Assembly: GCA_903869365.1 (NCBI GenBank)
Contig: CAIPYV010000128.1
Location: 1 to 47,621, forward strand
Source of the DNA: an uncultured Chlorobiaceae bacterium
Lineage (GTDB): Bacteria; Bacteroidota; Chlorobiia; Chlorobiales; Chlorobiaceae
Length of the DNA stretch: 47,621 nucleotides
Reading direction: 5' to 3'
Both the position numbers and the translations under genes were made by a program. Numbering within the stretch: the stretch's first letter is position 1; each line of letters opens with the position of its first letter. A model generated the notes under the pieces. It was not told the origin of the DNA. It did not search any database and saw only the letters and a list, made by a program, of their open reading frames with translations. Positions 13,657 through 18,443 of the stretch are shown here, piece by piece.

Positions 13657-13791
13657 AGAAATTATGCATCTGGATTTTGTTCCAAAGTTCTTAAATGCCT
13701 TAAAATATATTGTTTTAAATTCATTATTTTAGGGAGGTGAGGCCTCTGCATCAAAAAAACAATGTTATTTGAACCAGGAAGATTTCAGCTC

Positions 13792-14421
13792 ATGGATAAA
13801 CCAGATCCAACCCGTCATGTTAAAACCAGGACAAAAAAAGAGTCCCTGTCACGTGAGGAGCGTCAGAAGCAACTTGAATTTCAGAAAGAAGCAGTAGTTC
13901 ATCTCAATTCGCTTTATAATTATGCTCTTCATTTAACCATGAATCCGAGTGATGCCGAAGATTTGGTGCAGGAAACCTATCTGAAAGCTTATAGATTTTT
14001 TAATTCTTTTGAGCGGGGAACAAACTGTAAAGCATGGCTGTTTAAAATCCTGAAAAACAATTACATCAACCGGTTTCGTAAAAACTCGAAAGAACCGGGA
14101 AAGGTTGATTATGATCTGATAAAGGATTTTTACCACTCTATTAAAGATATTCAGAATGACACCAGTGAAGCTGAAAGCGATTATTTCCATTCATTGCTGC
14201 ACGAAGAGGTCTATCAGGCCCTTCACTCGTTACCAGAAGAGTTCAGAGAGGTGATACAGCTGTGTGATATTGACGGGTTTACCTATGAAGAAATTGCAAA
14301 TATGGTTGAAAGTCCTATCGGTACCGTCAGATCAAGATTATACAGAGGGAGAAAGCTGCTTCGAGAACAACTTGAGGGGTACGCTAAAAAATACGGCATA
14401 AACACGGATAACCATCAATAA
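13792..14421 (+). CDS. RNA polymerase ECF sigma factor
   Basis: This extracytoplasmic-function sigma-70 factor has region 2 in [17 protein letters not shown] followed by [17 protein letters not shown], and region 4 in [21 protein letters not shown] place the start at 13792 (209 residues) because AGGAAG lies 10 bp upstream; an ATG at 13762 would add ten residues, and the strong AGGAGGTGA-like stretch at about 13733 is too far from either. The gene is followed 18 bp later by a zinc anti-sigma gene, so it is probably held inactive until oxidative or other stress. Its regulon is not visible here. Confidence 0.88.
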
Positions 14422-14439
14422 GCACAAACTATAATTACT

Positions 14440-14697
14440 ATGAACTGCCAAAAGGCCTGCGTTCTTATGAGTGCCGCGGTAGATAGTGAGCTTTCACTTA
14501 AGGAAGAACAGGGGTTTTTTCTGCACCTCTCGGAATGCAAAGAGTGCAAAGATGAGTTTGAAGAGGCAAAAAAAACAAAGCTGATCATAAAAGAGAAAAT
14601 TGTCCAGTTTAAAGCCCCCAAGACTCTGATTAATTCAATCATGGAACTTACCAGCCTCAGCACCATGGAGCATGAGGAGACTCTTCTTTTTGAATAA
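14440..14697 (+). CDS. Zinc-binding anti-sigma factor (ZAS family)
   Basis: The 85-residue protein has the ZAS motif H29-x3-C33-x2-C36 in HLSECKECKDEF, with another Cys pair at C3 and C7. Such proteins bind their cognate ECF sigma factor and release it when the zinc thiolates are oxidised, as in RsrA. The position directly after the sigma gene (18 bp) indicates a sigma/anti-sigma pair. There is no membrane segment, so it is cytoplasmic. The redox-sensing role is inferred from the motif. Confidence 0.85.
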   Translation: MNCQKACVLMSAAVDSELSLKEEQGFFLHLSECKECKDEFEEAKKTKLIIKEKIVQFKAPKTLINSIMELTSLSTMEHEETLLFE

Positions 14698-14811: not shown

Positions 14812-14830
14812 CGGATATCATGATTATCCG
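14812..14830. promoter_or_regulatory. Inverted repeat around an upstream ATG of the ArsR gene, possible operator
   Basis: CGGATA and TATCCG (14812-14817 and 14825-14830) flank the 7-bp centre TCATGAT. The centre itself is close to a palindrome. ArsR/SmtB proteins usually bind dyads like this near their own promoter or start, so autoregulation is plausible. No binding evidence is available. Confidence 0.35.
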
Positions 14831-14849
14831 GAGCAGCAACAAGGTTATC

Positions 14850-15230
14850 ATGAACAAAACGGTTACCATCACTGAAGAGGAAGTAAAAAAGTGGAATCTC
14901 AATATGCCTGATGAAATGCTTGAAGCTGTAGCCAATCGATTCAAGCTGCTCTCCGAGCCGATGAGACTTAAAATTTTGCGTGTTCTCTGTGAACGGGAGC
15001 ATACCGTTCAGGAGATTGTGAATAAAGTTAATGCCACACAGGCAAACATTTCGAAACATCTTGCCCTGTTGCATGACAATGGTATCGTGAACCGTCGAAA
15101 AGAGGGCTTGAAGTGCTATTACCGCATTGCTGATGACAGTATTATCTATTCGTGCTATCTGAGTTCGAGGAGTGTTGTTGAAAACCTTCAGGACCGACTC
15201 AACTGGTTACAGAAAGTCAACACCAAATAG
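14850..15230 (+). CDS. ArsR/SmtB-family transcriptional regulator
   Basis: The 126-residue protein has the winged helix-turn-helix of the family: [25 protein letters not shown], then the recognition helix region [22 protein letters not shown] (each given in part), and a wing [12 protein letters not shown]. No obvious metal-binding CVC motif is present on the recognition helix, so the signal is unknown. I chose the ATG at 14850 (AAGG lies 5 bp upstream); an in-frame ATG at 14820 would add ten residues. It lies between the ECF/ZAS pair and the hsp20-dnaK genes. Confidence 0.85.
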
Positions 15231-15255: not shown

Positions 15256-15310
15256 TGTCATTTTTGACACTATCTAACAATCTGTCATACAAGAAAAAGC
15301 CAGTGTGACA
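15256..15310. promoter_or_regulatory. Paired TGTCA/TGACA elements, possible sigma-54 enhancer sites
   Basis: TGTCA-TTTT-TGACA forms a perfect dyad at 15256-15269. A second pair, TGTCA at 15283-15287 and TGACA at 15306-15310, uses the same half-sites with an 18-bp gap. They lie about 65-130 bp upstream of a sigma-54 promoter, the normal distance for the binding sites of an NtrC-type activator. The cognate activator is not in the window. Confidence 0.5.
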
Positions 15311-15373
15311 TTTTTACTATTCCCCCTGTCTTTTATAGCTCCCCAAAAGAACAAAATCATGGTATAGAGACTT

Positions 15374-15389
15374 TGGCACGCTTATTGCA
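15374..15389 (+). promoter_or_regulatory. Sigma-54 (RpoN) promoter of hsp20
   Basis: TGGCACG at 15374-15380, four bases, then TTGCA at 15385-15389 is an exact match to the -24/-12 consensus TGGCACGN4TTGCW. It points toward hsp20, with about 60 bp between the predicted start of transcription and the ATG. Confidence 0.8.
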
Positions 15390-15461
15390 AATTATTGACA
15401 GTAAGGCGTTAAACTCTTACAATTGATCAAATAACATGACAAGCGTAAAAAGGAGAAGACC

Positions 15462-15860
15462 ATGCTCGTAAAATTATCTCAAGATCCCCTAAGGCTGTTT
15501 GATGATATCCGTACAAGTGCCAAAACACCTGCAGTGCCGGCTTTCAACGTTGATATTTTTGAAGATGAGACAGGATTCCATATTGATGCTGAACTTCCGG
15601 GTGTCGCCAAAGAAGAGATTGCTCTCAATGTTGAGGATGATGTATTGACCATCAAAGCGGAAAGAAAAAAGAGTAGTGAAGAAAACAAAAAAGATTACCT
15701 GCGTATTGAGAGAACCTATGGCAGTTTGCAGAGAAAATTCAGCCTTGGCGAAACGATTGATCAGGATCATATCAATGCAGGGTTTGACAATGGAATACTT
15801 CATGTCACTCTGCCGAAAGCTCAGATGATAAAAAAAACAAAGGAAATTTCGATTAATTAA
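15462..15860 (+). CDS. Small heat-shock protein Hsp20 (alpha-crystallin family)
   Basis: The 132-residue protein consists almost entirely of an alpha-crystallin domain: [20 protein letters not shown] near residue 25, the conserved [10 protein letters not shown], and the closing motif GILHVTLPK. It holds unfolding proteins for refolding by DnaK, whose gene follows 81 bp downstream. A strong ribosome binding site AAGGAG lies 8 bp before the ATG. Transcription appears to depend on sigma-54. Confidence 0.93.
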
Positions 15861-17864
<2,004 letters not shown>

Positions 17865-17892: not shown

Positions 17893-17923
17893 AACAAAGG
17901 GATTCATCATGAATCCCTTTGTT
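17893..17923 (+). terminator. Terminator hairpin after dnaK
   Basis: Perfect 15-bp arms (17893-17907 and 17909-17923, starting AACAAAGGG) with almost no loop follow the dnaK stop. Only a weak T-rich tail follows, so it may act as a pause or mRNA-stabilising structure as well as a terminator. Confidence 0.75.
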
Positions 17924-17999
17924 ATTTAACCTTGTTTTGCTAATTTATCATCTATTGAAGGTAGAACACCAGAGAGTGTTATTTTTGCAAATTTTAACC

Positions 18000-18443
18000 A
18001 TGCAAACAATGCAACCTCAGCTCAGCCGTCCCAACACCGGCACAAACCAAGTCAGAATCAGTACATCAGGGCCATGGTCAGGCAATGCGGTTCATAAAGC
18101 AGAAAAGTATTTTATCACTTCTGCAAAAAGGGATAGTAAGGATAACCTTCACATCCAGATAAGCCCGAGCTCAGGACGCAGAAAGCTGTCACCGACCAAG
18201 GAGATAGTCAATAAAGTCATAACCGGCGAAATCGAGCTGTTTGTTTTAACAACGCAGCCGGATATCGGTATTGACCTGAAGAAGAAAGTACTTGACAATG
18301 AGAATCGTTATGTCATTGACTTTGACAAGAGAGGAGTAAAATGGACTATGAGGGATATTCCTGTCTTTTATGATTCTCTGCAACAAAAGCTCTGTGTCGA
18401 AATTGATAGGCGTACCTATACTCTTAATGAGTTTTTCAAGTAA
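18000..18443 (+). CDS. Hypothetical protein, 147 residues
   Basis: I do not recognise this protein. The open frame extends upstream to 17919, inside the dnaK terminator, so I place the start at the ATG at 18000 ([14 protein letters not shown]). There is no signal peptide or membrane segment. The N-terminal 30 residues are rich in Ser, Asn and Gly; the rest alternates charged strands and helices (for example [17 protein letters not shown]), suggesting a small folded soluble protein. It ends before a bidirectional terminator. It may be specific to green sulfur bacteria. Confidence 0.7.

Follow-up and report, generated by a model that had tools for sequence, protein, structure and literature searches.

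Control of chaperone genes by sigma-54 has already been reported in Bacteroidota (PMC9723704, PMC12316311), hence the mechanism itself is not new. In Flavobacterium psychrophilum, mapped sigma-54 starts precede groESL, dnaK, grpE-dnaJ, htpG, clpB and lon (motif SM4), and the available text of that study counts three PF00158 proteins and leaves the sigma-54 activators of the chaperones unassigned (PMC9723704). According to the predictions of a survey published in 2025, sigma-54 controls chaperones, among them IbpA, in Bacteroidota and Planctomycetota; Chlorobiia appear in the available main text with nitrogen fixation only (PMC12316311). Searches of the open-access literature found nothing direct on sigma-54 and hsp20 in Chlorobi, on a shared enhancer box or on an activator. 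How chaperones are switched on in Bacteroidota, Chlorobiota and relatives that lack sigma-32 is poorly known.

Here, we analysed a stretch of 47,621 nucleotides (the window) from an uncultured Chlorobiaceae bacterium with a 2.93-Mb genome. As in the chaperone regulon of F. psychrophilum, -24/-12 promoters are predicted before chaperone genes. Unlike in that regulon, as far as the available text describes it, the sigma-54 site in this sister lineage belongs to hsp20(-dnaK) and groESL keeps a CIRCE element. We further propose enhancer boxes and a candidate activator, neither of which is described in the available texts of PMC9723704 and PMC12316311. The promoter in Chlorobiales is a further case of known sigma-54 control, to which we add the enhancer box and the candidate activator. 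With a shared box and a single candidate activator, the question can be put to direct test in a tractable laboratory strain of Flavobacterium or Bacteroides, and in Chlorobaculum tepidum.

The hsp20 promoter region

The features of the region are as follows.

15256-15269, + strand: enhancer-like dyad TGTCATTTTTGACA, the outer boxes (TGTCA 15256-15260, TGACA 15265-15269)
15283-15287, + strand: TGTCA half-site
15303-15313, + strand: GTGTGACATTT box (TGACA 15306-15310), about -65 from the -24 element
15372-15392, + strand: predicted sigma-54 promoter TTTGGCACGCTTATTGCAAAT (-24 TTGGCACG, -12 TTGC; predicted start near 15400)
15395-15423, + strand: sigma-70-like TTGACA-N17-TACAAT, 11/12 matches, possible strain-specific second promoter
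15462-15860, + strand: hsp20 (PF00011), 132 aa
15861-15941, + strand: gap of 81 bp between hsp20 and dnaK; forms hairpins and resembles a terminator in several relatives
15942-17864, + strand: dnaK, probably the downstream member of the unit

The first-pass annotation had claimed a full match to the RpoN consensus upstream of hsp20, and this perfect site was found: TGGCACGCTTATTGCA at 15374-15389 (+) is the single sigma-54 match without mismatch in the window. The core TTGGCACG-N4-TTG occurs once in these 47.6 kb against 0.06 expected, and the site TTTGGCACGCTTATTGCAAAT lies 88 bp 5' of hsp20. The GC of the -12 element is present here and is replaced by GA or GT in some relatives. Four TGTCA/TGACA boxes lie 64-118 bp 5' of the -24 element, and the dyad TGTCATTTTTGACA was observed once in the window against 0.11 expected. 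Two pairs of half-sites had been described upstream; their position is borne out and the first pair is a dyad, but the second consists of two looser half-sites. The position near -65 is the one most often occupied in the aligned hsp20 promoters of Chlorobiaceae.

From this arrangement and its conservation, we consider it very probable that the segment 15256-15392 combines a sigma-54 (RpoN) promoter with an enhancer upstream of it and drives hsp20; this estimate refers to the sigma-54/enhancer mechanism at hsp20. We infer the function of the promoter, its signal, the identity of the activator and read-through into dnaK as follows. RNA polymerase with sigma-54 would wait in the closed state at -24/-12, and a bacterial enhancer-binding protein would bind the TGACA boxes 64-118 bp upstream. 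Switched on by proteotoxic or envelope stress, this activator would hydrolyse ATP and open the promoter; it would most likely be a REC-less AAA+-Fis protein encoded at G000:C105:31767-32915. Transcription of dnaK would follow by partial read-through from the hsp20 promoter.

Alternatively, hsp20 could be transcribed mainly from the sigma-70-like TTGACA-N17-TACAAT at 15395-15423, with sigma-54 playing a minor part. This element, which the first-pass annotation did not mention, has 11/12 matches and ideal spacing, but it is not conserved: the best match in relatives is 9/12 and most relatives have none, whereas -24/-12 is invariant. We therefore regard a main role of the sigma-70-like promoter as improbable, and here it may add a basal level of transcription as a second promoter.

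Upstream of hsp20 and its neighbouring ArsR gene lie an ECF sigma factor and, next after it, a small anti-sigma-like protein with a zinc finger (zf-HC2) (window 13762-14696). On the other side, pscD of the P840 reaction centre lies 3' of dnaK (window 17919-18443).

Conservation of promoter and boxes

Genes for hsp20 were collected from 40 related genomes, and 29 promoters from three families of Chlorobiales were aligned; genome G017 was excluded, as it carries a paralogous hsp20 only (L038). TGGCA(C/T)G-N4-TTG is kept in 29/29 hsp20 promoters, with GG, GCA, TTG and the spacing invariant, at 67-122 bp before the hsp20 ATG. The site recurs in another five Chlorobiales (L153-L157), which bring in a fourth family, and before the lead hsp20 of several other Bacteroidota from other classes. 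Comparison of upstream regions in relatives had been proposed as a test that could overturn the promoter assignment, and the assignment came through it. One-mismatch matches to the sigma-54 consensus are common, most of them within genes, which might suggest a functionless chance match at hsp20; conservation refutes this reading, and we give it a negligible probability. Second, paralogous hsp20 copies carry no sigma-54 site in the nine cases read, and they provide a within-genome control.

Most aligned hsp20 promoters contain 2-4 TGACA/TGTCA boxes. In the 150 bp 5' of the -24 element, 23 Chlorobiaceae regions hold 86 boxes, compared with 11.4 +/- 3.2 (maximum 22) in dinucleotide shuffles, which overstate the significance because the sequences are related. 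Boxes likewise exceed the shuffles in two sister families, whose six promoters hold 14 (2.7 +/- 1.5 in shuffles), and in 20 sigma-54 chaperone promoters outside Chlorobiales (33 vs 7.4 +/- 2.5). Occurrence across phyla argues more strongly for the boxes than the shuffle statistics do. In Chlorobiaceae and the sister families, boxes concentrate at about -95, -65, -45 and -36 relative to the -24 element and are mostly 20-31 bp apart, a spacing that would set them on roughly the same side of the helix; in relatives, one box cluster lies about 94-107 bp 5' of the -24 element.

These boxes might bind another regulator, for example the ArsR-family protein encoded at 14820-15230, with the sigma-54 activator bound elsewhere. 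The ArsR gene adjoins the hsp20 promoter here, and sequence resembling the 3' end of this gene was seen by eye upstream of hsp20 in several relatives. However, the boxes recur in the sister families and, beyond them, in further classes and phyla, and they also stand before dnaK, groES and grpE. We regard a different regulator as improbable.

Other sigma-54 sites and heat-shock controls in the genome

Genome-wide counts were obtained from pattern searches of the 2.93-Mb genome, using the reversed pattern as control. TTGGCACG-N4-TTG was found five times and the reversed control not at all, and all five sites are intergenic. They precede nifH, which is a classic sigma-54 gene, two similar exported proteins, a small RNA and hsp20. 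Only the hsp20 site has a cluster of TGACA boxes. When one mismatch was allowed, the extra sites in the genome were mostly within genes and none had a clear box cluster. The gene for sigma-54 itself, rpoN, is present (G000:C5:15721-16197) and was found in 39/41 genomes searched.

The small RNA is Chlorobi-1 of Rfam (RF01696, 77 bits), which starts at L050:1529; L050:1501-1595 corresponds to about 17381-17475 of G000:C105 in the same genome. A perfect sigma-54 site, TTGGCACGGGAGTTG (L050:1501-1515), ends about 14 bp 5' of this start, and therefore the RNA is probably sigma-54 dependent. The two exported proteins are near-identical (MKNKIIALSC...) and each stand behind a perfect site TTGGCACGATAATTG (L049:1501-1515 and L051:1501-1515); these sites have no TGACA boxes, and a pilus-chaperone-like gene follows one of the two proteins.

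RpoH (sigma-32) and HrcA/CIRCE serve the same purpose in other systems; in the present genomes, RpoH was over the cut-off in 0/41 searched, and a match below threshold is probably the primary sigma factor. No CIRCE lies near hsp20-dnaK, as the first-pass annotation had reported, and the sole CIRCE found in the genome, a perfect one, precedes groESL. None of the exact sigma-54 sites of the genome precedes groESL. With CIRCE before groESL and a sigma-54 site before hsp20, control of the chaperones is therefore split. Several other Bacteroidota groESL also carry CIRCE, hence sigma-54 cover of groESL is not universal in this phylum.

Relation of hsp20 and dnaK

All Chlorobiaceae in which both genes were read have dnaK 74-89 bp 3' of hsp20 (81 bp in the window); the gap widens to 261-532 bp in sister families. 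Ca. Chlorobium antarcticum (L239) lacks hsp20 and has the sigma-54 site 96 bp 5' of dnaK. Because the genes are adjacent and the L239 site stands directly before dnaK, the sigma-54 promoter likely also controls dnaK. Many hsp20-dnaK gaps fold into a hairpin, in some followed by a T run, which argues against full read-through and suggests partial termination; the gap in the window itself gave no terminator-like call.

A strongly conserved element was noticed in the sister families, consisting of a hairpin GCGCTTTCGCAG...CTGCGAAAGCGC followed by AAAAAGGAGAATAACTATGAAC and by a reading frame that is very short. It occurs at L032-L037, L154, L155, L157 and L254; its copies in L032-L037 sit on the opposite strand within the hsp20-dnaK gap. 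The loci scanned gave no Rfam match for it at the gathering cut-off.

Candidate activator

Eight sigma-54 activators are encoded in the genome. Across the nine Chlorobiales genomes compared, one ortholog group is complete, a REC-less AAA+-Fis protein of 374-402 aa, with AAA+ from near the start, a Fis-type HTH and no receiver domain. The member in our genome (G000:C105:31767-32915) has 383 aa, and the helix ERTLYRK is conserved in the group. For NifA, no reciprocal match above thresholds was obtained in G025, a genome that keeps the hsp20 promoter. In the phylum, 46/61 genomes have one match each to the candidate, and grouping by E-value threshold into genomes with and without the activator is not fair because a miss may be a diverged ortholog. 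On this argument from distribution, we favour the REC-less protein as the putative activator of the hsp20 promoter by a modest margin over even chances.

Sigma-54 and the boxes may be right and another activator may act on them, either a response regulator (group L004, group L006 or a lineage-specific one) or several interchangeable ones. Recognition helices of similar sequence (TLYRK/TLYRR) are found in several activators of the genome. In bacterium AUK196, hsp20-dnaK and a REC-containing activator are divergently oriented, and TGACATTTTGTCA dyads lie beside a REC activator in L251. However, the promoter and the boxes span all Chlorobiales families compared and no other activator group does so, and we regard a different activator as a serious but lesser possibility.

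The gene of the REC-less candidate lies away from hsp20 and lacks a box cluster upstream of itself. The first-pass annotation had suggested looking for an NtrC-family gene with the same dyad in its own promoter; no activator group shows such boxes consistently. A GAF-type activator (L002) has three boxes upstream in our genome, which are not conserved. Moreover, the box is not unique to the candidate, because such boxes also precede sigma-54 sites beside other activators (L251, L352) and hsp20-dnaK of AUK196 has a divergent REC-containing activator next to it (L242).

Outside Chlorobi, the match of the candidate is often next to lptE and miaB (gene names assigned by eye). A SPOR-like gene lies upstream of the candidate in Chlorobi and in some deep Bacteroidota, and miaB and lptE are not adjacent in Chlorobi. 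The candidate is a putative ortholog of an lptE-linked Bacteroidota activator, which is often also linked to miaB or a SPOR-like gene. Assignment as PspF (TIGR02974) was rejected at 283 bits vs a cut-off of 444. Like the candidate, PspF of the phage-shock system is a REC-less AAA+-Fis protein that acts with sigma-54 on stress genes; unlike PspF, the candidate has a long linker before the HTH, and no psp genes were seen nearby. It shares PF00158, the Fis-type HTH and the GAFTGA loop with two-component activators of NtrC type, but it lacks their receiver domain, and the NtrC-type assignment was rejected as well.

Distribution beyond green sulfur bacteria

A composite pattern (TGACA, 20-30, TGACA, 42-72, TTGGCACG-N4-TTG) was searched in one genome per species of 84,980 species. 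At least 118 loci were obtained, and about half of the matches listed precede chaperone genes: about 30 hsp20, 21 dnaK, 3 groES/groEL, 4 grpE and 3 Clp ATPase. Targets were named by comparison with hsp20 and dnaK of the window and groES/groEL of the same genome, and GrpE and Clp ATPases by eye. As hsp20 promoters of Chlorobiales served to build the pattern, matches within this order are not independent; without these matches, about 24/64 precede a chaperone gene (80 titled loci among the matches listed). Among the matches listed, the chaperone matches outside Chlorobiales belong to Bacteroidota, Verrucomicrobiota/Kiritimatiellota, Gemmatimonadota, Zixibacteria and others, and many of the remaining ones fall within genes and look like chance.

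The same layout before chaperone genes in many related phyla suggests a shared heat-shock activator. A dedicated activator for chaperones in green sulfur bacteria had been proposed at the outset; the sigma-54/enhancer layout behind this proposal is supported, but it extends beyond green sulfur bacteria to other Bacteroidota and to other phyla. That one TGACA enhancer code and a single ancient one-component activator would do the job of sigma-32 with sigma-54 across FCB and PVC phyla is a more speculative extension, which we consider rather unlikely.

Some loci combine such boxes with other activators. In bacterium AUK196 (L242), the divergent REC-containing sigma-54 activator shares the box-bearing region with hsp20-dnaK. 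In a Bacillaceae MAG (L251:47-159), a response-regulator activator gene with the helix NLYRKIDQY is closely followed by two dyads of TGACATTTTGTCA type and a sigma-54 site, whose target gene falls outside the locus. TGACA/TGTCA boxes and a sigma-54 site also occur at a Phocaeicola tolC-like gene, beside another activator (L352).
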